A stretch of DNA of 64,000 nt from Liolophura sinensis (taxonomy: Eukaryota; Mollusca; Polyplacophora; Chitonida; Chitonidae). Under the pieces are notes generated by a model, which had not been told where the DNA came from, did not search any database, and was given only the letters and a program-made list of their open reading frames with translations. The stretch lies in the NCBI RefSeq assembly GCF_032854445.1, contig NC_088298.1, forward strand, positions 10,591,504-10,655,503. Reading direction: 5' to 3'. The translations under genes and the position numbers were made by a program. This document shows, in pieces, positions 2,721 to 37,200 of the stretch. Position 1 is the stretch's first letter; the number at the start of each line of letters is the position of its first letter.

Positions 2721-2912
2721 ATGTGTCAGCGGGACGACGAAAGCAGCCCTGTGAGCCTGCCAATGTACACGTGGGAAGAAGTCAGAAAACACACAGCGAG
2801 AAATGACAGCTGGCTTGTAATAGACAGCAAGGTATACAATGTCACAAACTGGGCCCGGAAACACCCCGGTGGGGGCAGACTTTTAGGGCACTATGCTGGG
2901 GAAGACGCGACG
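2721..2912 (+). CDS. FADS: desaturase exon 1
   Basis: 64 codons, ending GAC GCG ACG before GTAAGT (phase 0). Encodes most of the cytochrome b5 domain, with the HPGG haem-ligand motif and HYAGEDAT. Confidence 0.93.
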
Positions 2913-5900
2913 GTAAGTAGTTATCATTTTTTGTTTGAATAAAAGGACGTTTTTGAGTTAATAATGGAATACTTATGACATGGACGTAGGCAGCGCGAAC
3001 TACTTAGCCCTGTTTATAGGCCTACCTGTAGACACAGCTGGGATTAGCAAGCTGATATGCACAGCCGAACATGTTAATCTTATTGGTATGTGTTAATCAG
3101 ATTTAAATTTAATGTAATGCTCTTAAATGAGGAGAGACGAAATGTATTGACCTGGGAAAGAATGGATGAGTGCAATTGAATTAGGAATAATTTATACAAG
3201 GTATTGGGTGTAGTGTAAATCCGGTAGTTTTCTATTTTTTTCCCTTTAATTGTATGTAAATTATAGAGCAGTTCACATTTTCACATTCACAGGTTAAAGG
3301 CTTGTTTATTCTGTTTTTTTTTCTTTACTAAATTGCCAGGGATAAGCTATGGTACATCATAATTAAATGCAGTGAAATTTCATTTACATGATGGCCACGT
3401 GGTTTAAGAGCCTACATCTTGATTTGTAATCATAACATTAGTGGTTCAAATCTGAGTCAGGTCACACCTATGATTTTTGTGCTTCATTACTTGGAGCCCA
3501 CAACACATGTAAATTGATGGGTCAAGTACTAATTGGCCAGATGTTAGTAAGCCCATAACATCACACTACAACAGTAATTTCCGGGTGTCTTGTCTGGTGT
3601 CTTCAGCATGGCATTCCATTTAAGCAGCACTATAAATCTGTTAGCAAGGGATCCGTTGCTCTACAGTAAAACATTGTGATGTCATGATAAGACTGAAATA
3701 AGGCCATCATTGCAAGCATTTTTGTTGGGGATAACCCAACTGACAAACTGACCTATCAAAAATGGGCCCTTTTTTTAAAAAGATTATCTGCCTATCATTT
3801 TCATTAGGTAACCTGAGTCTCATTTTGTGTTTTACGGGCAAGCTGACGCTTTGTAATCGAAAAGTGAATAAAATAAAATTGAAAATCTACCTTTTGTTTC
3901 GTCAGACATTTTTATAATTTTGAGGATTTGTCTCATTTATTTTTATGTTAATTTATACCCTCCTCAAGCACTGAAATAAATCATTGTGCCTTAAAACATA
4001 AAGATAAACTGGTGTGGCTTTAGCCAGAATAAAAGAAGAAAAATTCATACATGTTACTGACAGACTCTATTTTTTTCTGATACGGATGGCAAGGTTGGGT
4101 TATGACAAACAAGTAATATTTAGGCATGGCCTTATGTTACAATTTAAGTGGAATGTCATGTGCTTCAGTGGTGGCAGTACTTTGGTGTACTTGCCCTGCC
4201 ACAAGAAGACACCTCATATCTGTATACATTTAATTACTCCTAGTCATCGTATGGCTGAAAAACTGTTAATTAGGGCTTAAAACCCCAAGTTAATTAGGAC
4301 TTAAAACCCCAAGTTAATTAGGACATAAAACCCCGAGGACACAAAACCCCAATGTCCTAATTAACATGGCATACATGCATTTTTGTGCACATTCATTGTT
4401 ATGGCATTTTCTATTCAATGGCAGTATGTTATTTTGAATATTGGACGTCGATTCTAACTTAAATAGCTGCAATAAAACCAGGGAAGAAATGATCTGAAAA
4501 AGACTGGATATTTTTTGTTCATTTTCGATCTGTATTACACTGATGTATTTACATATTCAGGATGCTTGGGTTGGTTTTCACAATGACAAACAGTTGGTGT
4601 CCAAGTTTCTGAAACCTCTGCTGATTGGACAACTGGCCCCAAATGAAATCACGGAAGTAAGAATTTTCTTTGTTTCTTTTTTTTGTTTTTTTTTTCAAGG
4701 AGTTTACACAGTGGATGGTTTTACTGAATTAACTCAAATGTGTTTCAGCTGCTGGTTTGTTCTAGCCATTTATATATGTGTATCTATCTCTCGTCAATGT
4801 TTTTCTGTCTGGTTTGTGATAAAAGAAAAACATTTTTTTCACATCCAGACAGATTGAAACAAAAAATGAAAATGCATAATGTTATCCTTTTAGCCTGCAT
4901 CACATATAACAGTCAACAGTAACATAGCGTGCCAGCGAGGCACAATCACTTAGGAGGTTCTCACCAATACACTCTGAGTAACCGCCTGAATTCTACCACT
5001 GTGTCCAGGAAGACTCATGGAGTTATCTCCCCCTGATTCACTGCCCAATGTCTTACAGTCACTAATATGCTGCCATAACGTAATGACCCAGGAGCCTCTT
5101 ACCAACGCAGTCGCTGTGAGTTCAATTCCAGTTCATGCTGACTTCCTTTCTGGTCGTAAGTGGGAAAGTCTGCCAACAAATTGCGGGTGGTTGTGGGTTT
5201 CCCCTGGGCTCTGCCCCGTATCATCCCACTGTAATTCTGGCAACCTCAGTATAAGTGGAATATTTTTGTGTATGGCATAAAACACCAATCAAACAAAACC
5301 AACAGTATTAACATTACTTGAAAGATGATTAGTGACTGTATTTATTTATTTGTTTATTTATTTATTTATTTATTTATTTATTTGATTGGTGCTTTATGCC
5401 ATACTCAAGAATATTTCACCTATATGACAGCAGCCAGCATTATAGTGGGTGGAAACCGGGCAGAGCCTGGGGGAACCCATGACCATCCGCAGGTTGCTGC
5501 CAGACCTTCCCACATACGGCCGGAGAGGAAGCCAGCATGAGCTGGTCTTGAACTCACAGCGACCGCATTGGTAAGAGGCTCCTGGGTCATTACGCTGTGG
5601 CAGCATATTAGTGACTGTAAGACATTGGGCAGTGAACCAGGGGGAGATAACTCCATGAGTCTTCCTGGACACAGTGGTAGAATTGAGAGGGTTACTCAGA
5701 GTGTATTGTATGAGAACTAATGCCAATAAGTTTGATTCCTCTCATGATATAAGTAACACCAAATGAATCAATAATTACCTTGGGCTATAATGAGTAATGA
5801 CCTCTTTAAACAGGGTCTTCATTTAATGTCCCTCATTGCTTACATGACTTATGTTGAAATTTAAAACCATGACTTTTTTTGTGAGCAAATTTTTCACTTT

Positions 5901-8900
5901 CATTCCGTTTTACAGACACCACTTATGAAAGACTTCAGGGACTTGCGGAAGAAACTGGAAGACATGAACCTGTTTAAAGCAGACAGAATTTTCTTCCTGC
6001 TGACAGTGGGGCAGATACTCCTATTTGAGCTCATCGCTTGGGTGATTTTCTACTGCATGGGTACAGGCTGGGTACCCTTCCTCCTGGCTTCCCTCTTCCT
6101 TGTAACAGCTCAGGTGAGACTGATAATTAATTCACTGGGAATGCAGAGAGGGAATAGTTACGTTGCATACCTCAATTATGAGGCTTGAATTGGTTTATAA
6201 AAGGTATCTGAGATTTTCGATGTTCAGTAGGGTATTTATTATGAAGAGAATGTCCCTCTCTCCCTGGTAACGGCTCAGGTGAGGTTGATAATGACCCTAC
6301 AGGTGTGCAGAGACAATAATTATGTTGCCTGTCTCAATTATGTTCGTTGCCAGCCTCCGTATTATGTTGCCTTAAAGGGCTTATGAAGCATATTTGTCAG
6401 ATGATTCTTCAAGTATGAATCACTTGAATGCACAGAAGCACAAGCTCCTTAAGCTCTTTCACTCATTATTTGTTTTGGCAGTGTTCATAATTTCACTGGT
6501 CTAGCTTATTACAGAATAAAGGAAAAAGACACAAAAGCGTCTAACCTTTCTTCTTGGGATGCAAAAATTTCTTTAATGCAATGGCAGTGTTTGTATTAAG
6601 ACCTTCAGCTTTCAGACCAGAAATTGAGAAACTGAGTAAATTAAGAAGCTTGAAATGGTGATGTCAGCAGTGACATTTCTCACAATCGCTCATTGGACAG
6701 GGTCCTGGGTGTTAAGCTGGTAACTGGTTTTAGAGTTAATTCTTTTTCGGGTATCCTTAAGTCAGTGAGTGAGAACTGCGATTAAGTTTGAGAAACTGTT
6801 GATATGTTACATGTACATGTATGTTGCCTTCTTTACTATACTATGTTGCCTTCTTTACTTCATGTTGCCTTCTTTACTTCATGTTGCCTTCTTTACTATA
6901 CTATGTTGCCTTCTTTACTATGTTGCCTTCTTTACTTCATGTTGCCTTCTTTACGTCATGTTGCTTTAATTATATTGCTACATTTTAGTTTTGCTTTACA
7001 GGTTGAATAAATCCTTTTTCAAAATCGGTAGAGGGTATAAAATAAAAACAAAACTGAAAAATCGTCTATTTTCTTGAAAATGTGGACAGTTCAGTCAGCT
7101 TTTTTTTTTAGTAATGTTGACGACATACTGGTACTTGCTTTGTTGGGAAACCCTGAAAAATAAGAAAACTGTAAAAACATTAAACTTTTTTTCAATGTTT
7201 ATTTGATTTTTGAATTGTTGCTTGGCCATAAATCACAAAATCCAATTCATGTACCTGTTAACTTGACGTCTCCATATCATAACAGAAAGGGAAAGTTGAA
7301 TAATTATCATAACATGTTCTGCACATCTTACTCAACCATGTCAACTGCTAAATTCTTGAGAATGATATGTCAGACTCAACATGTATGACTTATCAGAAAC
7401 TCCTTACCTCTACATTTCCACATAGGCTCAGGCTGGCTGGTCCCAACATGATTTTGGTCACTTGTCCGTCTTCCGCAAGTCAAAATGGAACCACATTGTG
7501 CACATTTTCATCATCAACTTTTTGAAGGCGAGTATACGTAGGTCTGAGCTGGTAGCTGAATTATATTGTGCCCTGAAGAAATAATGATGCATTTGGACTG
7601 ATTATCTGAAGTCACCATCTTAGATTTGTGAATGTCCTAAAACCTGTACGTATTCCATCCAGAAATAAGCTTGAGCTCAGTAATCATTAATGTACATTCG
7701 TGTAAAGAACAGTGAGCTATTAAATAACAATGCATATTAAATAACAGTAAATTACGCTGTGGAATCAGTGTAAAAGTAAATGATAGGGGTGTTATTTCAA
7801 TACAAGTACTGCATGTACTGAGCTGAGGTTTTGCATACAAGTTGTTTCATGTATTGAGCTCAGGTTTTGCGTACTAGTTGTTTCATGTAATGAGCTCAGG
7901 TCTTGCATACAAGTAGTTTCAAGTATTGAGCGCAGGTTTTGCATAACAATTGTTTAATATATTGAGCTCAGGGTTTGCATACAAGTTGTTTCATGTATTG
8001 AGCTCAGGTTTTGCATACAAGTAGTTTCATGTATTGAGTGCAGGTTTTGCATACAAGTAGTTTTATGTATTGAGTGCAGGTTTTGCATACAAGTTGTTTC
8101 ATGTAGTGAGCTCAGGTTTTGCATACAAGTTGTTTCATGTACTGAGCTCAGGTTTTGCATACAAGTTGTTTCATGTACTGAGCTCAGGTTTTGCATACAA
8201 GTTGTTTCATGTACTGAGCTCAGGTTTTGCATATAGGTTGTTTCATGTGCAGAGCTCAGCTTTTGCATAGAAGTTGTTTCATGTAGGGAGCTCAGGTTTT
8301 GCATACAAGCTGCTTCATGTACTGAGCTCAGGTTTTGCATACAAGTTGTTTCATGTAGTGAGCTCAGGTTTTGCATACAAGTTGTTTCATGTACTGAGCT
8401 CAGGTCTTGCATACAAGTTGTTTCATGTATTGAGCGCAGGTTTTGCATAACAATTGTTTAATATATTGAGCTCAGGGTTTGCATACAAGTTGTTTCATGT
8501 ATTGAGCTCAGGTTTTGCATACAAGTAGTTTCATGTATTGAGTGCAGGTTTTGCATACAAGTAGTTTCATGTATTAAGTGCAGGTTTTGCATACAAGTTG
8601 TTTCATGTAGTGAGCTCAGGTTTTGCATACAAGTTGTTTCATGTACTGAGCTCAGGTTTTGCATACAAGTTGTTTCATGTAGTGAGCTCAGGTTTTGCAT
8701 ACAAGTTGTTTCATGTACTGAGCTCATGTTTTGCATATAGGTTGTTTCATGTGCAGAGCTCAGGTTTTGCATAGAAGTTGTTTCATGTAGTGAGCTCAGG
8801 TTTTGCATACAGGCTGCTTCATGTACTGAGCTCAGGTTTTGCATACAAGTTGTTTCATGTACTGAGCTCAGGTTTTGCATACAAGTTGATTCATGTAGTG

Positions 8901-11900
8901 AGCTCAGGTTTTGCATACAAGTTGTTTCATGTACTGAGCTCAGGTTTTGCATACAAGTTGTTTCATGTACTGAGCTCAGGTTTTGCATACAAGTTGATTC
9001 ATGTAGTGAGCTCAGGTTTTGCATACAAGTTGTTTCATGTACTGAGCTCAGGTTTTGCATACAAGTTGTTTCATGTACTGAGCTCAGGTTTTGCATATAG
9101 GTTGTTTCATGTGCAGAGCTCAGGTTTTGCATATAGGTTGTTTCATGTGCAGAGCTCAGGTTTGGCATTTATATGTGGCTTAATAGCTACCAAATCTATG
9201 TTGAAATTGATAATCGTCATCAGTCATTGAACGTAACACTCGCACAATTACGGTATCTTGGTGAGATGGTTAATGTGCTGCGACTCTCGGGCCCATGGCT
9301 GAAGAGGTCACAAGTTCGAATCCAGCTCTTGCCAATTTTAGTGTGGATTTAAGTTTTGAGGTTTGTCACTTATAAACCTGATCGCTCACGCTGTTTAACA
9401 CCAATCCAAGAAATAACCACTTATTACATCGGGTACATTTTATTAGGAATTGATCAGTCCATTGATCAGTCGGTTTTGAATTGATCTGCAGGGGGCCTCT
9501 GCTGACTGGTGGAATTATCGGCACTACCAGCATCATGCCAAGCCTAACATCATCCGTAAAGACCCAGATATCAGGATGGAGATGCTGTTTCTGCTGGGAA
9601 AACAGCAACCTGTAGAGGTGAGTGGATGAGTGTTAAGGATGCAGATGCTGTTTCTGTTGGGAAAATAGAAACCTGTGGAGGTGAGTGGATGAGTGTGAAG
9701 GATGTAGATGCTGTTTCTGTTGGGAAAATGGAAACCTGTGGAGGTGAGTGGATGAGTGTGAAGGATGCAGATGCTGTTTCTGTTGGGAAAATGGAAACCT
9801 GTGGAGGTGAGTGGATGAGTGTGAAGGATGTAGATGCTGTTTCTGTTGGGAAAATGGAAACCTGTGGAGGTGAGTGGATGAGTGTGAAGGATGCAGATGC
9901 TGTTTCTGTTGGGAAAATGGAAACCTGTGGAGGTGAGTGGATGAGTGTGAAGGATGGAGATGCTGTTTCTGTTGGGAAAATGGAAACCTGTGGAGGTGAG
10001 TGGATGAGTGTGAAGGATGTAGATGCTGTTTCTGTTGGGAAAATGGAAACCTGTGCAGGTGAGTGAATGAGTGTGAAGGATGCAGATGCTGTTTTTGCAT
10101 GGAAAACAGCAACCTGCAAAGGCGAGTGGATGAGTGTGAAGGATGCAGATGCTGTTTCTCCTGGAAATATGCCAACCTGTGTAGGTGGGTGGATGAGTGT
10201 GAAGGATGCAGATGCTGTTTCTGTTGGGAAAACAGCAACCTGTGGAGGTGAGTGGATGAGTGTTAAGGATGCAGATGCTGTTTCTGTTGGGAAAACAGCA
10301 ACCTGTAGAGGTGAGTGGGTGAGTGTGAAGGATGCAGATGCTGTTTCTGTTGGGAAAACAACAATATGTAAAGGCGAGTGGATGAGTGTGAAGGATGCAG
10401 ATGCTGTTTCTGCTGGGAGAACAGCAACCTGTGGAGGTGAGTGGATGAGTGTGAAGGATGCAGATGCTGTTTCTTTTGGGAAAACAGCAACCTGTAGAGG
10501 TGAGTGGATGAGTGTGAAGGATGCAGATGCTGTTTCTGTTGGGAAAACAACAATGTGTAAAGGCGAGTGGATGAGTGTGAAGGATGCAGATGCTGTTTTT
10601 CCTGGGAATATGCCAACCTGTGTAGGTGGGGGGATGAGTGTGAAGGATGCAGATGCTGTTTTTCCTGGGAATATGCCAACCTGTGTAGGTGGGGGGATGA
10701 GTGTGAAGGATGCAGATGCTGTTTCTGCTGGGAGAACAGCAACCTGTGGAGATGAGTGTGAAGGATGCAGATGCTGTTTCTGCTGATAGAACAGCAACCT
10801 GTGCAGGTGAGTGGATGAGTGTGAAGGATGCAGATGCTGTTTCTGTTGGGAAAACAGCAACCTGTAGAGGTGAATGGATGAGTGTGAAGGATGCAGATGC
10901 TGTTTCTGTTGGGAAAACAGCAATGTGTAAAGGTGAGTGGATGAGTGTGAAGGATGCAGATACTGTTTCTGTTGGGAAAACAGCAACCTGTAGAGGTGAG
11001 TGGATGAGTGTGAAGGATGCAGATGCTTTTTCTTTTGGGAGAACAGCAACCTGTAGAGGTGAGTGGATAAGTGTGAAGGATGCAGATGCTGTTTCTGCTG
11101 GGAAAACAGCTACCTGTAGAGGTGAATGGATGAGTGTTAAGGATGCAGATGCTATTTTTGTTGGGAAAACAGCAACCTGTAAAGGTGAATGGATGAGTGT
11201 GAAGGCTGCAGATGCTGTTTCTGTTGAGAAAACAGGAACCTGTGGAGGTGAGTGGATGAGTGTGAAGGATGCAGATGCTGTTTCTGTTGGGAAAAATACT
11301 TTTTCTGTTTTCTTCAGTGAGTGTTACATGATATTGGTAGCATTTTGTTTATTTACTTATTTGACTGGTGATTTATGACACCTGGGACAGTGACCAGCAT
11401 TATGATGGTAGGAGACTGGGCAGATGCTCGGGGGGGAAATGCATGACCATCAAGAGAAAGACAATAATTTGTTTACCTGTGTTCTGTCAATTATGACTTC
11501 AAGACTTTATAAAGTGGTTGATATCTTTGATATAAATGCTCCATAATTTTAGAAACTGCAAAAATTAAAGTCATTGACAATTCCACACATGTATATCTTA
11601 AAATATTGTTCTTTCTATTTCTTCAGTTTGGGAAGAAAAAGAAAGGATTCATGCCCTATAATTACCAGCACAATTATTTCTACCTAGGTGAGTACAGGTA
11701 TGCATGAAGGGCTGATTGGCACCTGATTGAGTTCTCAGTTATCACACCTGGTCGGGGGCCTCCGTGGCGCAGTTGGTTAGCGCGCTAGCGCAGCGTTATG
11801 ACCCAGGAGTCTCTCACTAATGCGGTCGCTGTGAGTTCAAGTCCAGCTCGTGCTGGCTTCCTCTCCAGCCGTATGTGGGAAGGTCTGCCAGCAACCTGCG

Positions 11901-14900
11901 GATGGTCGTGGGTTTCCCCTGGGCTATGCCCGGTTTCCACCCACCATAATGCTGGCCGCCATCGTATAAGTGAAATATTCTTGAGTACGGCGTAAAATGC
12001 CAATCAAAGAAATAAATCACACCTGGTCCATATACCTTAAATAAGTATTAATATGCACAAATGACGTTTGATGCACAAATTTCTACATGTAAGTACTGAA
12101 TGTGGCAAAGATGTTTTTTTACAACCTCTTAATTGACATTTGATCTGCAACTCAAATTTCTACCTGTAAATATTACAACGTGGATAGGCATAGTCACATT
12201 TGATTTCCATCTCTAAATTTCTGTAATAAATTGCTAAAATGTGAAGATGTTATAAATATCTAGTATCCAGTCTTAATAAGCATTTTAGCAATTAATGTAC
12301 TGACCCAAATCTGATTAATAAATCGCGGACGATAGATTTTGCCACGTGACTTTCAAACCCGTATAAACTGTAGATGTATGTACCATTATTTGATTATTGA
12401 AATGAACATTTGAAAAGGAAGTTGATGTTAAATTTGCAATGCTTTGGATTTTATGTAGTTTTTCGGCCTTGCATTAGAAGTATTTAAATATAGTACAGTG
12501 TATTTATATACATGTAGTATAGTGCTACCATGAATTACATTAATGAGTCAGTCCAGTGTCGGGTCACATTTAAGACTCAAAGCTTGGCTTTCAGCATTAA
12601 GGGTATTGTGCAACGACTGGTTGACCTGTATCAGTATAATGGCTTTGCCAGGGGGCCTTACGTGCCCTCGGTAGGTCATTTCAGTCAATGCAGCACTAGA
12701 TAAGATCGGTAGAAATCCGCCCTGTTACAAGAAGGCACATTACATGCACTCTAAGGATTCCTCTTATGATTAAAAAATTGTTAAGTATGATTCTCTTTCA
12801 CTCACTCACTCTCTCACTCACTCACTAATGAAGGTAATAACATGACCATGATGTCTGTGAACCCTCTAATTAAGAATACTACTATCAATTTATGAACTTG
12901 CTACATGTTGATAATATTTTCATCATCTTTATTAATCAACTTTTCTCTGTTTTTTCTCAGTTCTTCCTCCTCTGCTGCTACCATTATACTTCAACTATGA
13001 AATTCCGTACTTTTTGATAAGCCGCAGGAAATGGGGGGTAAGTTGCCCTTAGCATCTTATAATGAGACTATGGACCAATTGACCAAAGCAGGTGGATTTC
13101 AGATGGAATGATGGTTGTCATTTTAATTTGTGTCTATAGTTTACTTCTTTTTAGCGAGTTGCCTATATTCATCTGTCTGTAAAATCAGTCATAGTCGCAA
13201 CCAAAATCGCCTTTCCTTTTGTGACTTGTAACAACAAAAGCTTCGCACGTCGATATTTTGGAAATCCCTATTCTTGCAAAGATAAATGAAGTTAGAATAC
13301 TTTTCTGAAGTTTATAATGTTAAACTCCATGAGCCTTGTTTTCGGCACCTAAAAGTCGGCTGATGTCATCATTGTTCAGAAGTCAGTGGCATGCTGAATG
13401 TTGGGCGGAGCTTAATATGTTTGTATGAAGGATGACGCCAGTTACCAAAACCGCTATAGACTTTAATTTAAACCCTGTTTCTGACAGTGCCATATTTGAT
13501 GGTCTTGGTGTGGAAACCAGGTTTATGGAGTTTAACACTATGAATTAGAAAAAGTATTACAACTGCATTTTCCTTGTATAGACATACAAAATATTAATGT
13601 GTACAGCTTGTGTTGTTACATGTCACTAGGAAAAGGCTATTTTGGTAACGGCTATGACTGATTTTACAGACAGCTGAATATAGGAGACTGGCGAAAAAGA
13701 AAAAGGTTACAGTTATCAAAATAACCAGGATTTAATCCAACCTGTTATCTGATTGATTAATTTGTTGATGTTTTTGCACCTATATGACGATGGTCAATAA
13801 ATCACTGATCTTTGCCAGGTAGCGAACAAACCTCTGCACTTAAAGCCTTAACAGACACAACCAAAGCTGGATTTGAACCTGCGACCTGATTGGTCATGGG
13901 CTGATAGTTGTAGTAAAATACCACCCAGTCTTGTGTCCTCCTTCTACAAACATGTACATCTTGTATATTCTTGAGTAAATTGAGTCTTAACACACCAACT
14001 AATAGAATAGAATAGAAATAGAATTTACAAGAAAGGTCATTATTTTTTGTTCTGTTTTTTTTTTTACAGGAATTGGCATGGATGTTATCGTTTTTCCTAC
14101 ATTATTGTTTGTTATTTGGCTGTTTTCTGGGAGTTTGGGGAACTCTAGGCTTGTATCTGTTTGTCAGGTAAGGAGCTCAAATTGGCAGTTTGGTCAATGT
14201 AAATGAATTTCCATTGAATGATTATAGACTATAATGATAAATAAATTTCTTCTAAATGACAAATAAATTACCTTAAAGTGAGATAGAAATTGCTGATAAA
14301 TGACAAATAGAGTAACAGTGTCTCACAAAATCACTTATCTTCAAGGTTTGTTGGGAATAACAAAAAAGGGGATCTGATAGAAAGGGGTATAACTCCTGAA
14401 TATTTGTGAATTTAGTGCTTTTGGTTGAGTAGCCTCCCCTAGACCAAGCTGTGTACGCCCTGCTTTTGCGCAGTAGGCCATTGTACATTTTCTCAAATTT
14501 ATTATTTGTTTATTATTTGATTGGTGTTCTACGCCGTACTCAAGAATATTTCACTTATATGACGGCAACCAGCTTTATGATAGGAGGAAACTGGGCATAG
14601 CCCATTTATGGATGGAGAGAAAGCCAGCATGAGATGGACTTGAACTCATAGCGACAGCTTAGGTGGAAGGCTTCTGGGTCATTGCGCCACGCTGGCCTGC
14701 TAACCCTCTCTTCCACGAAGGCCGCCTACACAAAATTAATGTTTGCATATAATCAAGTACTACAGTAGTGTCCTGTCATAATCTCGTTACGTGCGATATT
14801 GCTCAGATTCCTGGAAAGCCATTGGTTCGTCTGGACAACTCAGATGAACCACATTCCCATGGCTGTGGAGCGTGAACAGAGACTCGACTGGGTGACCATG

Positions 14901-17695
14901 CAACTCAAGGCCACATGTAACGTCAAACAGTCCTGGTTCAATGACTGGTTCAGCGGACATCTTAATTTCCAGATTGAACACCAGTGAGTATTGAAATCAA
15001 AGTTTGGTTGTTTTTGTTTTAAATAGTGGTTTTTATTTATTTTCGAAGTTAGATGCAGCTTTGTGGTTAAATGGTATTGGTTAAAGGGGTACTTGCACTT
15101 TTTAATCGCTCTGACACATGAGGTATGAGTTAAATACCAGCTTTTTTGAGACTATGATCTCACTGCCTGTGGGACCTTGGTGACAGTAAACAGTCAACAA
15201 CCCTTTTGTCAACACTTGTGTAATCTAAGGTTTGTTGAAGATCACTTATTTACCACAATAATGGTGTGAATATGTGTACTTCAGATGTGGGAAAGTTTGT
15301 CAGTATCTTGCAGAAGGACTGGGGTTTTCCAAGGCACTGTGGTTTCCTCCACCTAAAACACTGGCCGTCTTCATATAATTGAAACATTTTCATCAACTCG
15401 TTAAACAATAATGAAATAAATACATATATATTTACTTCCTTATTTAAGTATTTTTCATCTGGTAGTATATACGACTCTTTTGATTTTTGTACATTATTTG
15501 AAGATCATTTCTCTGTAAACTGGGGGGCCTCCTCGGCTCAGTTGGTTAGCGCGCTAGCGCAGCGTAATGACCCAGGAGTCTCTCACCAATGCGATAGCTG
15601 TAAGTTCAAGTCCAGCTCATGATGGCTTCTTCTCCTGTTGTACGTGGGAAGGTCTGCCAGCAACCTGCGGATGGTCATGGGTTTTCCCCAGGCTATGCCC
15701 GGTTTCCACCCACCATAATGCTGGCCGCCGTCGTATAAGTGAAATATTCTTGAGTATGGCCTAAAACACCAATCAAATAAATAAATAAATCATTCTGTAA
15801 ACTGAAACACACATCAACATCTGTGACTGGAAAGCAGTAGTAGGCTACTATGTTAGACATGCTGACCTTACCTGCTGTACCTGCAATCAACTTATATAGT
15901 GTAGACCTACGCTTACTTTGTTTGCCTCTCTACTCAGTGCTGTGTTGATTGTAGCTAACATGGCAACATTTGCGTCTTCAACATATGTCATCATGGTAGT
16001 TACAATCAACTGCCACACAACGATTGCTTTGTGTAGCAGGGGCCAGGGGCCACTCAAAGTGATCGTAGGCTTAATTGATTGTAACTACCGTGGTGATATA
16101 TGTGATATATGTGAGAAACATACATGTATGTTGCCATGGAAGCTGTATAGTTCAAACCATCTCAGCCTTCAGTCACATTTTGCAGGAGGTTTAAAAGAGA
16201 GAGTTAATTTTTATTATTAACTTGTTGTCATTCTGTTTTTGCAGTTTATTTCCCACAATGCCGCGGCACAACTACCACAAGGTGGCGCCACTTGTACAGT
16301 CTCTGTGCCGAAAACATGGTCTGAATTACCAGTCAAAGGGGCTATTTGAGGCTTTCAAGGACATTGTTGTGTAAGTTTGACTTCTAAAAATGTTCACCTG
16401 TTACACTATTTCTTCAAAAATTTGGAACAGATATTGGTAGTGTTGAAAGTAGAATATTACATTTCTTTACCAGCCTTTTGGAACAGTAAATGTATGAGTA
16501 TGTTGTTCATTAGATGGTCTAACCATGTGAGAAAAAAGAAACTCCTGCTATCCCTGCTAGAATTACATATATATTGGCTGAAATGAGCAGACTAGGCGTT
16601 GCAAATTTTAGAAGAAATAGGGTAAACATTGCATGCCTTAGTGCTGTAAGTTTGACATTAACATTGTATGCCTTAATGCTGTAAGTTTGATTTATTTATT
16701 TATTTATTTGATTGGTGTTTTACGTCATACTCAAGAATATTTCACTTATATTACGGCGGCCAGCATTATGGTGGGAGGAAACCGGGCAGAGCCCGGGGGA
16801 AACCCACAACCATTACAACTTAATGCTGTAAGTTTGACATTAACATTGTACACCTTATACTGTAAGTTTGACATTAACATTGTAAACCTTATGCTGTAGT
16901 TCAGCTTAAACATTGAAGGCCTTAATGCTGTAAGTTTGACATTAACATTGTACACCTTATACTGTAAGTTTGACATTAACATTGTAAACCTTATGCTGTA
17001 GTTCAGCTTAAACATTGAACGCCTTAATGCTGTAAGTTTGACATTAACATTGTACACCTAAATGCTGTAAGTTTGACATCAGCATCGTACACCTTATGCT
17101 GTAAGTTTGACATTAACACTGTACAGCTTCATGCTTTCATTCAGGAAGTTGTTGCCTTTTAGCTGACTTGCATATCTAGTGTTATTCTCAAAGGATTGGC
17201 ATCCATTAACGGTGACCAGCAATATTTTGTGGACGTTCACAATTTGCGTATTGTGTTCATATTGTTCTGTTGTTTAACAGACTATAATTTCGGGTTATTA
17301 TCACCTGTAGTTCTTCCAAAGTTGTTCCTGTAATGTCCCGAAACCTTCCCATTATCTTTCACCTCAATGTCGGGTTGCTGCTGCACCATGCGAGTGAATT
17401 AAGGGTCCGGCTGCATGCAGTTTTGAACAATGAGAATGAAAGCCTTTCATTTTGCATACCATCTTCCCTGTTGATTGGCCAGCTCTCATTTTTAATTGAA
17501 ATAGACAACCGCTTTTGAATAAATGTGCATTGTATTGAAAATCCTCACAAAAATTAACAAATGACACTGATATCGCATTAACTAACTGCCTGTACCTGTA
17601 AAGAGATAAGTGGGAGAGTTAATATGTATTTACTTTCGATTTGCAGATCTCTGAAGGAATCGGGAGAGTTGTGGTATGAGGCATATCACATGTGA
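2721..17695 (+). CDS. FADS: front-end fatty-acid desaturase with N-terminal cytochrome b5 domain (11 exons)
   Basis: The joined exons 2721-2912, 4561-4656, 5916-6113, 7426-7527, 9492-9617, 11627-11687, 12961-13037, 14070-14167, 14807-14983, 16245-16370 and 17647-17695 give about 433 residues, close to the roughly 444 of vertebrate FADS1/FADS2. Residues about 15-80 form the cytochrome b5 domain with haem motif HPGG (48-51). The di-iron histidine boxes are HDFGH (170-174), HYQHH (207-211) and QIEHH (372-376); Gln heading the third box is the hallmark of front-end desaturases. Hydrophobic segments lie near 115-160, 252-275 and 285-316, as expected for an ER membrane enzyme introducing a double bond between an existing one and the carboxyl end. 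Regiospecificity (delta-5, 6, 8 or 4) cannot be read from sequence. The start is supported by an in-frame stop 12 codons upstream (2682-2684). All junction phases agree; intron 4 has a GC donor. Confidence 0.96.
3388..3740 (+). mobile_element. tRNA-derived SINE, family C, in intron 1
   Basis: The head has a Pol III A-box-like stretch (TGGCCACGTGGTTTAAGAG) and a B-box-like GTGGTTCAAATCTGA about 55 bp later, as in tRNA-derived SINEs. Its body differs from families A and B. The right boundary is estimated. Confidence 0.45.
4258..4345. repeat. short tandem repeat, about 25-bp units
   Basis: Three to four copies built on TTAATTAGGACTTAAAACCCC, lying in desaturase intron 1. No other feature is seen in the rest of intron 1. 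Confidence 0.7.
4561..4656 (+). CDS. FADS: desaturase exon 2
   Basis: 32 codons, acceptor TTCAG before GAT GCT TGG, donor GTAAGA after ACG GAA. Completes the cytochrome b5 fold ([10 protein letters not shown]) and begins the linker to the membrane part. Confidence 0.92.
4957..5305 (+). mobile_element. SINE family A with atypical 5' leader, left arm of an inverted pair
   Basis: From about 5077 the copy is ordinary family A (ATGACCCAGGAGCCTCTTACC to the AACACCAATCAAA tail). Upstream it carries a leader of about 120 bp (ACACTCTGAGTAACC ... GTGACTAATATG-type sequence) in place of the usual tRNA A-box head. The same leader is present in the inverted copy at 5341-5717, so it predates the duplication or defines a subfamily. 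Confidence 0.8.
5341..5717 (-). mobile_element. SINE family A with the same atypical leader, right arm of an inverted pair
   Basis: Reverse orientation, beginning with a TTTATT repeat tail, then the family-A body, then the same 120-bp leader seen at 4957. Together the two copies make an inverted repeat of about 350-bp arms separated by a short loop, inside desaturase intron 2. Confidence 0.85.
5916..6113 (+). CDS. FADS: desaturase exon 3
   Basis: 66 codons between TTTTACAG and GTGAGA. Encodes the linker and the first long hydrophobic region ([16 protein letters not shown] onward), ending VTAQ. Confidence 0.93.
6252..6345 (+). repeat. diverged copy of the end of exon 3 and its 5' splice site
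   Basis: The block CCCTCTCTCCCTGG.. GCTCAGGTGAGG.. CTCAATTATG repeats, 165 bp downstream, the end of exon 3, the junction CTCAG|GTGAG and about 70 bp of intron. The duplicated donor is still consensus-like. Reading on from exon 3 reaches a stop at 6186-6188 first, so use of this site would truncate the protein. Confidence 0.75.
6829..6965. repeat. minisatellite built on TGTTGCCTTCTTTAC
   Basis: About seven copies of TGTTGCCTTCTTTAC separated by TATACTA, TTCA or nothing, so units are about 15-24 bp. It lies in desaturase intron 3. The short open frames across it are by-products of the repeat. Confidence 0.9.
7426..7527 (+). CDS. FADS: desaturase exon 4 (GC donor)
   Basis: 34 codons from GCT CAG GCT GGC TGG, carrying histidine box 1 HDFGH. 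It ends TTG AAG and is followed by GCGAGT, a GC-type 5' splice site. Joining here to exon 5 restores the family sequence FLKGASADWW; no GT donor in the neighbourhood keeps that frame and alignment. Confidence 0.9.
7801..9166. repeat. 36-bp minisatellite in desaturase intron 4, about 38 copies
   Basis: Unit approximates GAGCTCAGGTTTTGCATACA plus AGTTGTTTCATGTACT. The variant AACAATTGTTTAATATATTG occurs at about 7946 and again at about 8448, so a block of roughly 500 bp was itself duplicated. Because 36 is divisible by three, long open frames of 12-residue repeats run on both strands; they are not genes. Confidence 0.95.
9253..9417 (+). mobile_element. tRNA-derived SINE-like element in intron 4
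   Basis: Has an A-box-like TTGGTGAGATGGTTAATG and a B-box-like ACAAGTTCGAATCCAGC, and ends in ACACCAATCCAAGAAATAA, reminiscent of the family-A tail. It does not fold into an intact tRNA cloverleaf by eye, so it is called a SINE, not a tRNA gene. Confidence 0.5.
9492..9617 (+). CDS. FADS: desaturase exon 5
   Basis: 42 codons from GGG GCC TCT to GTA GAG, followed by GTGAGT. Contains histidine box 2 (RHYQHH) and the conserved KPN. Its last 45 bases (from 9573) are the first unit of the 63-bp array that fills intron 5. Confidence 0.93.
9573..11297. repeat. 63-bp minisatellite carrying copies of the exon 5 end and its 5' splice site (about 27 units)
   Basis: Each unit reads approximately GATGCAGATGCTGTTTCTG, TTGGGAAAACAGCAACCTG, then TAGAGGTGAGTGGATGAGTG and TGAAG. 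Unit one spans the real exon 5/intron 5 junction. By eye 16 intronic units keep NAG followed by GTGAGT, three have AAAG followed by GCGAGT, and the rest are altered. In the exon frame every unit with GTGAGTGGATGA gives a stop, first at 9627-9629. The 63-bp period explains the long spurious open frames on both strands (up to 492 codons on the minus strand). Confidence 0.95.
11627..11687 (+). CDS. FADS: desaturase exon 6
   Basis: 61 bp, acceptor TTTCTTCAG, donor GTGAGT, ending in phase 1. Encodes [20 protein letters not shown], matching the GKKK..PYNHQH segment of animal FADS proteins. Confidence 0.92.
11754..12015 (+). mobile_element. full-length SINE family A with 13-bp target-site duplication
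   Basis: Starts with a tRNA-derived head: A box TGGCGCAGTTGG and B box GAGTTCAAGTCC. It continues through the CCACCATAATGCTGGCCGCC core to TTGAGTACGGCGTAAAATGCC and an A/T tail. It is flanked by perfect direct repeats ATCACACCTGGTC at 11741-11753 and 12016-12028, the mark of LINE-driven insertion. This is the best reference copy in the window. Confidence 0.93.
12545..12832 (+). mobile_element. SINE family B, head truncated, in intron 6
   Basis: Contains GTGCAACGACTGGTTGACC, GGCACATTACATGCACTC, TAAGGATTCCTC and AAAAATTGTTAAGTA, ending in a CACTCACTCACT tail. It matches the fuller copy at 24021-24345, which has the tRNA-like head. Confidence 0.8.
12961..13037 (+). CDS. FADS: desaturase exon 7
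   Basis: 77 bp after TTTTTTCTCAG; the first two bases complete a Val codon begun in exon 6. Encodes [18 protein letters not shown], a membrane segment; donor GTAAGT, phase 0. Confidence 0.92.
13136..13714. mobile_element. fold-back element with about 195-bp inverted arms in intron 7
   Basis: The left arm (about 13140-13337) and the reverse complement of the right arm (about 13520-13705) align over their whole length. Shared blocks include CTGTCTGTAAAATCAGTCATA, ACTTGTAACAACA-like sequence and GTTAAACTCCAT. The interior of about 180 bp is unique and non-coding. Long arms with a small centre suggest a fold-back or MITE-type DNA element. Confidence 0.8.
13735..14000 (-). mobile_element. tRNA-derived SINE-like element, reverse orientation
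   Basis: Read on the minus strand it contains a B-box-like GTCGCAGGTTCAAATCCAGC within a degenerate tRNA-like head. The body resembles no other copy here except a short TATTCTTGAGTA tail motif. Boundaries are approximate. Confidence 0.45.
14070..14167 (+). CDS. FADS: desaturase exon 8
   Basis: 98 bp after a long T tract and ACAG; donor GTAAGG, phase 2. Encodes a hydrophobic region ([17 protein letters not shown] and onward), the second membrane hairpin. Confidence 0.92.
14500..14728 (-). mobile_element. SINE family A, reverse orientation, diverged
   Basis: Begins with TTTATTATTTGATTGGTGTT, then CGCCGTACTCAAGAATATTTC and the family core, and ends near GCGCCACGCTGGCC, a decayed head. Lies in desaturase intron 8. 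The middle has a deletion relative to the copy at 11754. Confidence 0.85.
14807..14983 (+). CDS. FADS: desaturase exon 9
   Basis: 177 bp from acceptor ATTGCTCAG to donor GTGAGT. Encodes [18 protein letters not shown], then ATCNV and [12 protein letters not shown], the highly conserved block leading into histidine box 3. Confidence 0.94.
15290..15425 (+). mobile_element. old SINE family A remnant
   Basis: GTGGGAAAGTTTGTCAG, TTTCCTCCACC and CTGGCCGTCTTCATATAA correspond in order to the family-A body but are much more diverged than neighbouring copies. Its position just before a fresh copy at 15523 is coincidental. Confidence 0.55.
15523..15793 (+). mobile_element. full-length SINE family A with target-site duplication
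   Basis: The head CAGTTGGTTAGCGCGCTAGC, the body and the AATCAAATAAATAAATAAAT tail are all present. Direct repeats TCTGTAAACTG flank it at 15512-15522 and 15794-15804. Lies in desaturase intron 9. Confidence 0.92.
15955..16145. repeat. inverted repeat (hairpin-forming), intron 9
   Basis: The left arm CATGGCAACAT..CATCATGGTAGTTACAATCAA is matched in reverse by TTGATTGTAACTACCGTGG .. ATGTTGCCATG. Arms are about 55-65 bp with gaps and the loop about 55 bp. It could be a small MITE; no known miRNA was recognised. Confidence 0.6.
16245..16370 (+). CDS. FADS: desaturase exon 10
   Basis: 126 bp after TTTTTGCAG. Its first base completes the second His of QIEHH, followed by [18 protein letters not shown]. 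Donor GTAAGT, phase 2. Confidence 0.94.
16640..17130. repeat. minisatellite in intron 10, about 32-40 bp units
   Basis: Repeats of AATGCTGTAAGTTTGACATT followed by AACATTGTACACCTT, with a higher-order pattern (a 95-bp block recurs at about 16825 and 16920). A family-A SINE has inserted into one unit at 16689. Confidence 0.9.
16689..16816 (-). mobile_element. SINE family A, 5'-truncated, inside the minisatellite
   Basis: TTTATTTATT tail, TTGATTGGTGTTTTACG, then TCAAGAATATTTCACTTATA and part of the body up to AACCCACAACCATT. The flanking CTTAATGCTGTAAGTTTGA on both sides is consistent with a target-site duplication, although the repeat array itself also supplies such matches. Confidence 0.88.
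17647..17695 (+). CDS. FADS: desaturase exon 11 (terminal)
   Basis: After GATTTGCAG, encodes the C terminus [16 protein letters not shown] and a TGA at 17693-17695, equivalent to the SLKKSGELW..AY end of animal FADS proteins. Confidence 0.93.
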
Positions 17696-30941: not shown

Positions 30942-31201
30942 TTAAAATGGGAGCTTACTGGTTAAAAACAGACTTTCTATTATTGGTGGCGCTTGAACCA
31001 TGTCTTCCAGTTTGAGATAAAAGAGTCTCTGGAGCCCTTCACGACTCAGTGACCTGAGTTCTGCAATTTTTCCCAGAATGGTGGAGAAGAAATGAGGTTT
31101 TCTCTGGGCTTCACTGTTGTATGTGCAATGATCGCGCAAAGTGTCTAAGATCTTTAGCTGTAAGTCCTCCATCTTTTTCGGTTCCTTCAGACCATGGCGT
31201 A
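30942..31201 (-). CDS. NR4A: NR4A terminal exon
   Basis: 85 codons and TAA at 30942-30944, acceptor TTTCCATTTCAG. Encodes [14 protein letters not shown] to the AF-2 end [11 protein letters not shown], which has one residue more before LPF than vertebrate LFLDTLPF. Confidence 0.95.
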
Positions 31202-34200
31202 CTGAAATGGAAAAGACCTTTATAGTATAAGGTATGCATGTATAATATGAAATAGTATTTAAATGGAGAAAGTCAGGCTCGATCACCAGTTCTCTGTAAG
31301 GTTAGGCAAATTTTGAAAATGACATAAGTGTGGTACTCTCAATATAAAAGACAGCAGCATTAAGACTGAGTTTCTACGAAGTTTGACAAAGGACTGATGT
31401 TGTTCATAATATAGCTATGCCACTATGCCATATATAGTAAGGAAATTATTCCTATTAAAAATGACATAAAAGACATGTAAAAAAATAAATATATACTGTA
31501 TCGCTGTTATTCTCCCGTCATTTACAAGATTTGCCTCCCTTTACTTATACTCTCTACAGATGGTGAGCACTGAATCTGGTAATGACCTGGCTTTTGCACA
31601 GCAAACATTTTGGTTTACATATATTTGATTTAGTGGAGCCAACAAAAAAAAAATCAAAGCATATACCGCGACACCGTATTTGCCATTAGGCCTACATCGT
31701 AAAACAACCAGCTGTGCTCACTATTAAAAACAGCACTGACATTACATTACTGAAGTCAACCAGAAGAAATTTTTAAAACTTTTTCTCCTTATGAACAGCA
31801 GAAGGTTAGATACATATTTTGAATCAATTTTATTTCCAAATTATAAGCATATTAAGCATGTTGCTATGGATACTTACATGTTACCATGGCCAGAGCTGCC
31901 ATACATGCCAAAGAGGAAATGTCCAATCCCATCCTCTGTAAGGATTTGCCAAACTCTAGTACAGACGCTATCCAATCGCCAAACATTTGTAGACACTGCA
32001 GCCTATGCATGACCATTCCATTACAAAACACTACCTTCTCATCATCTGACTGCATTCTGAAACAGATGAACAACAACAACGAAACGAAAAGTTAATATTT
32101 TGCGCGAGACACAAATAACAAAAGCTTTATTTTAGCAAAACAAGAAGCTTATCACTGTTTATGGCACTTTTTACGTGCTTGGAGATCACAGTTTGCAACT
32201 CATACGTTGCAGAGGGGCCTATAGGTCCTAAATTCTGCATAGATATTTCTCCTAAAATTTCAAAATGTAACCCTACCAAATGAGATGCATTATCTTGCTT
32301 TAGATGTTCAAGAAACATTTTAGCACAAACTCTACAGAAGGTAAGATTTATCTGCCAAACATGGCTACGCTGTCTTCCCGTTTTGTAGGTCCGTGTTTTG
32401 TTGGGTTTTCTTTCTTTCTTACTTTCTGCTGGGTAACTGAATCCCTTTCCCATAATTATTAACATATGACTTCAATATAATCCTATCGGCTAGAAAGGAA
32501 ATATCATTTTCGTGCCAGTTAACCTTGGGGCCTGGTGAATTCTGTATTTATTGATACGACTGTAGTTTGAGGCTTGTATTTCAAGCAGCCTTCCCGGTTC
32601 TCAACCCCCTTTAGGGATCACTCGTCATTAAGCATCTGGCAACCAGCCGCCGCTTCGGATTTTTTAGAAGCACGCGAGAAAACACAAAAGCTGTAGCAAG
32701 AGAGGTGAAGGCACGGTTTCGGATTTTGGTTGATCTCAGTTGATGCTTACGCTGGAAGGTGGGAAGTTTTGGCCCAAGGGATGTAATTTTTTTTAACCGG
32801 ATATCACACTAGCTGTGAGATCCTCAAGAATCATTGTCTGGGTCTTAGCAGTGAACACGAGTCAAGATTGAACATTGCGCCATCGTAAACCCTGGTAAAG
32901 TCAATGTAAAAAGCCCAAAACTGTCAAGTCTGTAACTTAATGCGTATGTACCTTTTTCCATGCATACATCTTTTGCAAACAGGTATGTTTAGTCATTGTA
33001 TCACCATATATATCATTTAACTGGTCCGATACGTTGTAATATCGAAAATTGTAAATTGTACAATCATTTAAGAACAATGTTTCGCTCTTTTCGTACTAAG
33101 CAACTTCGAATTAAACGGTTACCGTTATGCTGATGGCATATAATCTTATAGTCGACTCACGAAATACGCCTACACATCAACGCCATACCACCATTAGCCG
33201 CAGGGTTTATAACATGTGCTATTTACAACTATGTCTACTGCCAAGTTTTGTATTGTTTCTGCACACTGTCAGATGATGTCATAATGGCATACTCCCAAAT
33301 CGTTACCACGTCCGTTTGTATTTTATGTGTGGGGACATTGAGCCACTTTCCATCACCTTACAGCGTCAGTTAAGGTTTTTGTGAAGTTTGATTAATTTCC
33401 TTTCCAGAAAAGGAAATAAAAAAACATCAAAAGTATGCTTTAAGACTTTTACGTCCTTCAAAAAGTGCACTTTTACATACCAAACTTCAGATGAAATAGA
33501 TTAGCCAATATACCGCACATCTATTTTGTATTTAACCTATCCATTTAAGTTTTACAAATTCTTTTTTCTTGGGCCCGCTAATTCACAAGTAATTTTAAAA
33601 TTCAGATTCAGGCTTATTATAGTTTTTTTCCATCCCATTGTGGCTCTAACCCACCTGTATGCAGTCCTTAGTGCGAAGAGTTCTAATGAGGCCGACTGGA
33701 ATAAAAGATCTTGATCTTCTTTACACAGATCTTGGAAACCCGGGATCTTTTCTGCCCACGTTTTGATGACGTCAATGGAGCTGACGAGAATGTCGTAAAA
33801 TAACTTGATGTAGTCTTCGTCAGTTGTTGGGCTATCCTCACCGGTGGGAAGTTTGAACTGCAAATAACAATATGCCAAAGTCTGAATTAATAGTTCAATT
33901 TATTTATTTATTTATTTATTTCATTGGTATTTTACGCGGTACTCAAGAATATTTCACTTATACGACCGCAGCCAACATTATGGTGGGAGGAAGCTGGGCA
34001 GAGACCCGGGGAATCAACGACCATTTGCAGTTTGATAGTTCAATTAATAAGACAACCTCTAGCTAAACAAGATGATGTATCAAAATATTCACAGTGATCA
34101 TCGCTGAAACTCAGTTCGCATGCACCAGCCCGTGCTTGGACTTGCTAACATAACTATATAACTGAACTAACTGGGCGAGATCTCACAGCATTTCTCGCCT

Positions 34201-37200
34201 AGAAAAGTCGGTTCCAGACAGTGTAAAAACATAGCATTCTCTGCTGTTATACGCTGCAGTACTTGTGAACTAACTCTTAGCTTTACGAGAACAGTGACGT
34301 ATTACACAAAAAGAACAATTTGATTTACAGTTTCTCTTCTTTACTAGTAAAAATGGGTTTTCTTGAACTTTTTGTTCATTTTTGCTTATATCCTAAAAAC
34401 ATCCTTTTTTGCCGTAACCAAGTGTTGTTGTTGTTTTGTCATTATTGTTGTTGTTGTGAGAGCGCCTTCAATCCTCACCTTTTGGTAATCTAGGTTGGGA
34501 ATGTCCGGTGAAGTGTCAACGTGTGCCCTGACCAGGGCGGTAATGAGGCTGACGGGTGGGGAAGGTGGAGACTCCTGGGGACTCTTGGGCTTTGAGGGTA
34601 ACCGTCCCCGTCGTCCTTTTAGGCTGTCAGTCCGCACCACTGTGGGAAGAAAAATCAAAAAGGACTGTTTGAATGACTGATCAGGTGATTCACATCGGCT
34701 CCATCACACTGGATAAGTATGGACAGGAGACAGTTGGTCCTCTGTCATGGCACTGAAAATCGCTGCTTGGTGAAACGATTAGAGTAGATTTACCGGAAAA
34801 CAATTTTACTGTCGTATTACATCTTTGAAGAATGTGGTGGACTCGTATATATTAAAGGCTTTAGATGATAAGTTTTGTTTCTTAAAGAAATGTTTCTGAC
34901 AATCTCTGTAAATATGCTTCTTTATATATACAACATGGCTCCCGTCCATGCAAATACATCCTCGGTATTCCTGAGGTTCCCTTGACCCAAAACTCCTTTA
35001 GTTAGCCGTTTCTCCCACCCAACTTCAATAAACCCTTCTTTTTCAGTGACTCAAGATTCGAGTTTTAGGGACGGCCGGATACTATTTTTATTGCCAGTGG
35101 CGAGATCAGCGAGTTAGCTATCTAAATATCTCAGATGTCTACACAAATCCAAGTCTTCTTTCCAGCTGATACTAAAACATATTAGCACCCAGTAACAGCT
35201 GGATCAACACTGCCAGCGGCGGAAGAATCGGATCAACCGAGATTCCATGCTGTGTGACAGTCACTTCGTCAGGAGAAGCCACACTGAGGGTTCCATTCCC
35301 TGCATGGACTGCTTACTTCATTCTTTTCTTCGATATTTTAGTTTTTTACGAAATTTTTAAACCTAGAAATAGAATTCAGTGTGTATTCTTCTTCAATTCC
35401 CTTCATATCAGCAGTGCAGATAAACTATCCCCTTAGAAAGAAAATGTAAAGTTTAACGAAACAAAACAGAAAGGAAAATAATTGGGGTGGCAATAATATT
35501 TCCGTACCTTCTTTCACCATTCCGACTGCCAAGCATTTTTGAAAACGACAGAACTGACACCTATTTCTCCGTCTTTTATCCACGGGACAATTCTTGTCCG
35601 CGAGACAGACGTATTTGGCGCCCTTCTGAACAGTTCTCTGTAACGAGAAAGAAAATAGTTTACATCTCATGATTAAACAACTAATATATGTTTTCTTTGA
35701 CAAAAGTTCCCATGTTATAAGCTGTGCTAAACTTTTCTTTTCTCCTCTGCTCTCAGTCACTTTTTTCTTATTCTTATTGTTTCATGCATTTTAATCAGTT
35801 TTCTTTCGCTTTCGTTTTCATTGTATCCAATTTCGCTTTTAATATTGGTCAGTTACCTTGAAAAAGCCTTTGCAGCCCTCGCAGGTTCTGACGCCGTAAT
35901 GCTGACAGGCAGCGTTGTCACCGCACACGGCGCACATCTGGCACTCTTTCTGCGGCGTTTCCTGGCACGGCGATGAACGACTCGACGAAGGCGTGGAGGG
36001 AGTAGTCGGAGACTGCATCTGGAATTTTTGAACCTCCATCCTGTAGATGTAATAAAATCCATATGAAAAATCGACAGTCTTTTAGGGTTTTTCTTTTTTT
36101 GCCTCATGAAACATTTCCAAAATTTCGTTTTTCTTAGACACGTGGCTGTGTAATAAATGTGTAATAGTTTTGGAGACTCAAGTTTTCTCCTATTCTTTAA
36201 CGGAGCAATCTAAACATGTATATTATTCACATGAGTACGAAATTCTGTATTCTACTCCCATTTTTCTAAGTTTTTTCGGATCCTTTGATTCAGTTGCTGT
36301 ATCTAGGGATATGTATGAAATCCAATGTGCAAAATTGGATTTCTTATTCTGTGTTCGGTTGGTTAATATATCATTATTTAATATTTATTATATATGCAAG
36401 TTTCATTTCGGGTCATTAACATGGTTTTTATATTCCTACTCACCCGTCGGGAGTTCTCGGAGTGGAAATGGTCAGCGAAGGCCGCCGCTGAAAAGCTTGC
36501 CTGGACAGATGAATGTTCATTTCACCCCGATAAAGAGCGCCAGTGGCGGGAAAATTGAAATTAGCATCTGGGCTGGGAAGCCGCTGACTCTCATAGTAAC
36601 CCGACTGGTGGTAACCAGGGTAACCACTTTCGTCTCTTGTCTGATAGAGTCCCGTGTTGTCATGGTAACCATGTGAAAACACGGCTTGTTTTTGATCCAG
36701 ATCCGTGAAGCCCTGCACCTCTGAATGACTGAACAATGGCTGCGTTTGGTGATAACCGTGAGATTTGGAGAAATATTTTTGGTTGTCATGGAAACCTGTT
36801 TGATGGGGATGGTGATGATAGTACGATGAAGGATCCGTATCAGCCGGAAAGTTTTGAAAATGTCCCTGATAGTGGGTGGTTTCACCGAATTTCTCGGCTT
36901 GTTCTTGAGTCACTGTAGCGCAGTGATCGGTGAAGAGTCCAGAAAAGCCCTGTTTACTGGCGGAATCTTTTTCAAAGAGAATACCAGCTTCGTATCCGAA
37001 GGTAGCATCCGGATAAGTCTGGGGCGTAGTCTGTGATACAGGCTGCTGGTACCCATGAGCGGTGACCTGACTGTTGTCATATCCGGCGTAGGCGTCGACG
37101 GGGACGTCTGCTGCGGCTAAGCTGCTCTCCAGTGTGTACGAAGGAAGGGTGACCGCAGAGTAAGGGTAGACACTGATGTCCGCGGGAACGGGGTTAGCGG

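Follow-up and report, generated by a model that had tools for sequence, protein, structure and literature searches.

Intron 5 of a front-end desaturase gene in the chiton Liolophura sinensis opens with a tandem array, each unit of which repeats the end of exon 5 together with its 5' splice site (donor). The question raised by the locus is whether this ladder of donors regulates the enzyme, or whether it is one instance of something that happens more widely in the genome. The locus lies within a window of 64,000 nucleotides (contig NC_088298.1, positions 10,591,504 to 10,655,503 of the forward strand), and positions given without a contig are those of the window. A preliminary description had proposed that donor choice sets the share of functional enzyme, with array length potentially tuning desaturase output. 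The available evidence indicates that several introns of this animal have arrays derived from their own donors, in what looks like a recurrent habit of the genome, not a private switch.

The desaturase gene and its donor ladder

The host gene (gene A, 2721..17695, + strand) looks like an intact front-end fatty acyl desaturase gene, with 11 exons running from start codon to stop, of which ten (2721-16370) were rebuilt by hand and the last (about 17647-17695) was placed by eye. The product of the ten hand-built exons is an open protein of 417 aa, in which Pfam finds FA_desaturase (3.2e-36) and Cyt-b5 (1.2e-21), i.e. the N-terminal cytochrome b5 and the FA_desaturase domain, with HDFGH, HYQHH and QIEHH boxes, of a front-end desaturase. 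Exon 5 spans 9492..9617 (+ strand, phase 0), and intron 5 has its real acceptor at exon 6, modelled at 11627..11687 (+ strand), leaving a short intron of about 2 kb. Intron 4 appears to use a GC donor, AAG/GCGAGT (GC at 7528..7529, + strand; the slash marks the exon-intron junction), the nine bases of which are identical to those of the GC units of the array described below, so that GC donors are probably usable in gene A.

Two paralogues of gene A lie on the same contig, both on the minus strand (B, C4:10.915-10.927 Mb; C, 24.950-24.968 Mb). In paralogue B exons 5 and 6 are fused, with no intron 5 at that place, and in paralogue C the corresponding intron is at another place, after the bases AAATGTG. 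A separate 36-bp minisatellite of ~38 copies occupies 7812-9168 in intron 4, on the opposite side of exon 5, its unit having just a weak donor-like site (-5.6 kcal/mol). Similar interspersed elements (GGCCTCC...AGTTGGTTAGCGCGCTAGCGCAGC), taken to be tRNA-derived and SINE-like, occur in the window at 11757-12020 and 15524-15800, and recur in introns and at fetched loci.

The array itself spans 9573..11297 on the + strand. TRF reports 9573-11295 with a period of 63, 27.5 copies and 90% matches, and an anchor cut gives 27 units, all of 63 bp except one of 55 bp, and a 32-bp stub that runs to 11297, i.e. 27.4 copies. Unit 1 (9573-9635) joins the final 45 coding bases of exon 5 to 18 intron bases, including the real donor, GTGAGT (9618..9623, + strand). 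NAG/GTGAGT is intact in 16 of the 26 later units and AAG/GCGAGT stands in three (units 9, 13 and 16; GC first at 10122..10123, + strand, and also at 10374 and 10563); the remainder have GTGAAT (three), GTGGGG (two) or GTGGGT (one), or have lost the donor through an 8-bp deletion (the 55-bp unit 19, 10707..10761). Read-through past 9617 gives GTG AGT GGA TGA, such that a transcript using any distal donor would acquire an in-frame TGA at 9627-9629. The preliminary account of about 27 copies of a 63-bp unit, of a first unit made of the coding end of exon 5 plus its donor, of 16 perfect and three GC copies downstream, and of the in-frame stop is thus confirmed in each respect, by TRF and the anchor cut, by the sequence and gene model, by a unit-by-unit count and by the reading frame. 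On the + strand of the window AGGTGAGT occurs 17 times within the array and once elsewhere; it does not occur on the - strand.

In its head-to-tail, imperfect units, tens of copies and a unit length within roughly 10-100 bp, the array is a minisatellite; in that the unit holds the authentic donor of exon 5, with the array extending into the intron, it resembles the exon-edge VNTRs of human CBS and ABCA7. The near identity of units 3 to 8 suggests recent expansion close to exon 5. Unit 1, which still codes the protein end of the exon, differs from the other units by 3 to 12 bases. That the ladder is an assembly artefact is extremely unlikely: arrays are indeed hard to assemble, but these units differ from one another (mean pairwise divergence 11%), the array sequence is found at one locus only, and independent ladders of other sequence are present on C1 and C4. 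No second haplotype copy was seen in the one assembly searched, where, by best-candidate scoring, the array matched one place in the genome.

Directly after the array there is an acceptor-like pyrimidine tract plus CAG (11298..11317, + strand), with a pyrimidine share (0.875) equal to that of the real intron 5 acceptor; 15 sites of this kind are present on the + strand of the window. Recursive splicing at 11317 was considered and rejected, since the site reads CAG/TGAGTG instead of CAG/GTGAGT, as was use of the units as micro-exons, the best acceptor-like sites within the array having pyrimidine shares of 0.625-0.75 versus 0.875 for the real one. Open frames of up to 239 aa (sense) and 596 aa (antisense) run over the array; the longer one covers all of it (9536-11323, - strand), and a second antisense frame is open for 512 aa. 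These long frames on both strands are regarded as a by-product, because 63 = 3 x 21, and when the columns were recounted in the open sense frame, changes did not concentrate at third codon positions, as they would in a coding repeat.

It is likely that the exon 5/intron 5 boundary gave rise to the array as a minisatellite, and that the proximal donor is normally used, with some stop-containing leakage. From the observed anatomy and unit divergence we infer the steps of duplication, i.e. that a short tandem duplication took in the donor, the 45 coding bases before it and the next 12 bases of the intron, and that slippage or unequal exchange later expanded the array into the intron. The intronic copies would then have been free to drift, with unit 1 held by its coding duty. 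The exon-proximal donor is probably the normal one because only its use keeps the exon short and free of a stop, and it may be favoured by exon definition. Distal donors may leak slightly into TGA-bearing transcripts, which would be removed or give an enzyme lacking the third histidine box.

Donor choice and desaturase output

That the splicing machinery could meet a series of exon-end copies carrying strong donors, as the preliminary description had stated, is borne out by the anatomy of the units and by modelled U1 pairing. The predicted energy is -11.9 kcal/mol for the real donor, the same for 13 of its 16 perfect copies downstream, and -11.8 to -13.3 kcal/mol for the other three; by comparison, 0.2% of 2353 GT sites in the window (20,000-60,000) reach -10. 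Strong, equal donors of this kind, the TGA at 9627-9629, and the human CBS 31-bp array at the exon 13 boundary, for which activity reportedly falls with copies (PMC5188458), are what recommends the proposal that the spliceosome spreads its choice over at least 17 equal donors, with the TGA making every product but one useless and array length setting enzyme output.

In a tree of the 27 units, with parsimony changes counted per column, the donor columns +1 to +6 have 1.17 changes per column and columns -3 to +6 have 1.22, versus 0.84 for the whole unit, and 49 of the 63 circular six-column windows have as few changes as the donor or fewer. There is thus no sign that selection keeps the donor copies, because the donor columns are not better kept than their surroundings. 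Further points against a choice among equal donors are that one unit has no donor, three have GTGAAT and three GC; that in human ABCA7, the nearest precedent to have been tested, unit retention is given as about 2%, independent of array length (PMC5954066); and that similar ladders are present in unrelated genes. The comparison thus lends a regulatory role no support, donor columns changing at least as fast as the rest, and control of enzyme output by donor choice is improbable.

Less probable still is a role as a U1 sponge, in which the ladder would bind U1 snRNP along the intron, either guarding against premature polyadenylation or slowing splicing. Many strong modelled U1 sites in a row are consistent with this proposal, but those sites show no conservation and intron 5 is short. 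Structure hiding the donors was also considered and rejected: modelled openness ranges from 0.27 to 0.83, scattered round the background mean of 0.45, with no pattern.

The periods of related arrays bear on the same question. Among 12 donor-derived arrays with a readable period, it is a multiple of three in three (63, 84 and 33), and it is not, or is mixed, in nine (98, 95, 88, 88-90, 61, 50, 34, 32 and 31), a share divisible by three that is as chance would give. The desaturase array is expected to be mostly passive, possibly with a mild cost, and not a tuned switch, because canonical splicing persists in ABCA7 and a cost of length is reported for CBS.

Recurrence of donor-derived arrays

Other donors in the desaturase family have also been copied into their introns. 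In a local-alignment test, 40 exon plus 30 intron bases at each donor were compared with at most 1.2 kb of the intron, and the threshold was placed at a score of 20 once intron 10 had been seen. Junction-spanning copies were found in gene A for exons 3, 5 and 10 (scores 25, 64 and 20), and for none of its other seven donors. The end of exon 3 plus the start of intron 3 (6093..6180, + strand) is duplicated once downstream, as a diverged junction copy with CAG/GTGAGG (6258..6342, + strand; local score 40). The decamer at the real donor of intron 10, GTAAGTTTGA (16371..16380, + strand), recurs in nine exact copies in a 34/102-bp array (16646..17135, + strand; TRF and alignment), and is absent from the rest of the window, both strands included.

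In paralogue B, a 50-bp ladder of CCAG/GTGAGT, with at least 5.6 copies in the fetched piece, starts at exon 8, and a 95-bp array (L036, G000:C4:10920738 region) starts at exon 6. The L036 units have TTCCTTG/ATAACTT versus TTCCTTG/GTAAGTT at the real exon 6 junction, the donor being broken in every unit listed, as if the founder had lost its donor prior to expansion. Behind exon 1 of paralogue C lies a ladder, mostly of 32-bp units, in which GTAAGAAT occurs 33 times counting the real one; the 15-mer CACTGTAAGAATTCT is common to this ladder and the real donor, and the score (16) falls below the threshold. Copied donors scoring 20 or more thus number three of ten in gene A, two of nine in B (where donors B4 and B8 had just 115 and 204 intron bases searchable) and none of six in C, i.e. 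five of 25 in total; the donor tally for B and C only, computed with 16, recounts to 15. The mirror test of acceptors found copies for none of ten in A, none of six in B and none of four in C (0/20 in total). Fisher one-sided P values for donors versus acceptors are 0.048 with exon 5 and 0.085 without, computed with 26 and 25 donors where the recount gives 25 and 24, and so slightly off, on the cautious side.

Outside the family, the upstream edges of the first 12 consecutive donor-ladder clusters on C1 were inspected in order. In five of the 12 the 5' edge is an identified exon end, with the ladders beginning at exons for an ankyrin-repeat protein (Pfam 1.2e-9), SUFU (1.5e-8), RPTOR (1.8e-15), a second RPTOR exon 47 kb further (7e-6) and a helicase-like protein (3.9e-11), the last presumably of the Mot1/BTAF1 type. 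At L044 there is an open frame by the ladder, for which no exon match was found, and in the other six the array start was not reached or no exon was evident. Among the eight other ladders measured, the copied exon part is 4 bases long in paralogue C and ranges from 12 to 53 bases in the remaining seven. L045 (G000:C1:1309495-1310645) has an 81-bp repeat with an open frame keeping a cysteine pattern, taken to be antistasin-like, and a donor in each unit; its array start was not reached.

The breadth of the phenomenon was gauged by counting ladders genome-wide, defined as three AGGTRAGT 59-89 bases apart, with the same letters backwards as control, i.e. a motif of the same composition in which dinucleotides are not preserved. 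There are 3131 donor ladders (1354 + 1777) versus 1185 backwards (562 + 623), and 50,967 single AGGTRAGT (25,372 + 25,595) versus 47,888 backwards (24,156 + 23,732). For an acceptor-type motif of equal information, TTTTSCAG, there are 669 ladders (346 + 323) versus 261 backwards (146 + 115), and 84,914 single motifs (42,699 + 42,215) versus 42,632 backwards (21,137 + 21,495). Ladder hits per single motif are therefore 6.1% for the donor, 2.5% for the reversed donor, 0.8% for the acceptor and 0.6% for the reversed acceptor, in a comparison in which hits inside one array are non-independent and real donors inflate the single-motif count of the donor motif. When hits are merged into clusters within 5 kb, C1:1-5,472,460 has, among the matches listed, 19 donor versus 2 reversed clusters and, by eye, 3 of the acceptor type; this region is richer than average, with about 100 donor hits versus about 28 at the genome average, the hit totals being approximate and the cluster counts unaffected.

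It may be, however, that this genome is simply rich in minisatellites, some of which fall on donors with no preference for them. A control sample of 200 kb from 20 places on C1 contains 27 arrays with a period of at least 20 and at least four copies, covering 7.6% of bases, and a copy scoring 20 or more lies within 1.2 kb downstream of 231 of 2834 random positions (8.2%), a background against which the three of ten donors of gene A are far less striking. Within gene A itself 20% of random positions pass, in part owing to its own arrays. GTRAGT hexamers in the sample, few of which need be real donors, show no excess (12/161 with downstream copies), and the excess is modest in the earliest part of the gene-family sample. 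Copies were found for one of 17 presumed exon ends in the sample, several of which may not be real, and for none of the donors proposed for a nuclear-receptor gene within the window. That gene, of putative NR4A type by eye, has exons with the DNA-binding domain at about 30948-37306 on the - strand. Nor do the sampled arrays show a general excess of strong donors, the unit donor reaching -9 kcal/mol or lower in one of 27, an ABCA-like case, which also supplies the single exon end with copies among the 17. That case, L003 (C1:1,000,001-1,010,000, minus strand), is one more donor-derived array: an exon ends with CAG/GTAAGA, followed by a 98-bp array of roughly 28 units, each made of the last 38 coding bases of the exon plus 60 intron bases. 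This exon and a neighbouring one match ABCA7 among PDB sequences in two collinear pieces, weakly (3.3e-4), and Pfam gave no identification for the exon.

Against chance placement stand the ladder hits per single motif (donor versus the three other motifs), the 19 versus 2 clusters in the same 5.47 Mb, among the matches listed, and the observation that 161 of 7626 random positions (2.1%) have the donor pattern, i.e. a downstream but no upstream copy, versus three of ten gene A donors (P 0.001, post hoc). On balance chance alone is a doubtful explanation, albeit one of real weight, and a preference of the arrays for donors is likely. The fuller reading, that 5' splice sites are preferred birthplaces of minisatellites, with hundreds of ladders at real exon ends, including those of RPTOR, SUFU and the desaturases, and with acceptors seeding none, is put forward tentatively, its chances being judged a little short of even. 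Two causes are conceivable, survival on one side only or a mutational process linked to transcribed donors, and tens of near-identical donors behind the right exon would have to be tolerated by the spliceosome.

The process proposed for exon 5 has probably been repeated in the genome at donors and, as far as tested, not at acceptors. Duplication of a donor would leave the protein unharmed, provided that the proximal donor is used, because this donor stays intact and the copies fall in the intron. Donor duplications may thus survive, the proximal donor giving the right protein, and duplicated acceptors would tend to spoil it; mutational bias at transcribed 5' splice sites is an alternative cause. 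Recurrence at many exon ends provides natural tests both of how one donor is chosen among many equals and of how minisatellites originate. If it is true that donors seed arrays and acceptors do not, this bears on the roles of mutation and selection at splice sites.

Comparison with known systems

An effect of copy number on enzyme activity in human CBS was reportedly described by Lievers 2001. The array concerned, a 31-bp VNTR (c.1444_1467+7) at the exon 13/intron 13 boundary, is described with 16-21 copies, its unit combining, by its name, an exon end (24 coding bases) with the start of the donor (7 intron bases), as does the Liolophura unit (PMC2630376). Lower activity with more copies is reported for it (PMC5188458). 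By contrast with this 31-bp repeat in one human gene, the Liolophura array has a 63-bp unit and drifted donors, including GC forms, and belongs to a genome in which such arrays are numerous.

Human ABCA7 has an intron 18 VNTR with a 25-bp unit and 23.7 reference copies, the first two bases of the unit being the GT of the exon 18 donor (PMC5954066). According to the same account, retention of one unit is about 2%, unvarying with array length, and splicing stays canonical from 12 units up to hundreds, with longer arrays leading to more exon 19 skipping and lower expression (PMC5954066). ABCA7 differs from the desaturase in that the unit, as described, has no coding bases (PMC5954066), and in that the reported effect of length is on exon 19 skipping and expression, not on unit retention.

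Two single duplications are also related. CBS 844ins68 is a duplicated intron 7/exon 8 junction with two competing splice sites (PMC2630376); it differs in being, as reported, one duplication, placed where an intron ends, and in that the distal copy is the preferred one. Intron gain in potato RdRp is likewise described as a tandem duplication across an intron/exon boundary that reuses splice signals (PMC4974935); there, however, one duplication makes a new intron, whereas the desaturase copies pile up inside an existing one.

Searches of open-licence papers found no report of recurrent donor-born arrays in one genome, in the few wordings used, and none on mollusc desaturase splicing. The kind of array is already known from two human genes, CBS and ABCA7; what seems to be new in Liolophura is its recurrence in one genome, at the exon ends of unrelated genes, and the contrast between donors and acceptors.
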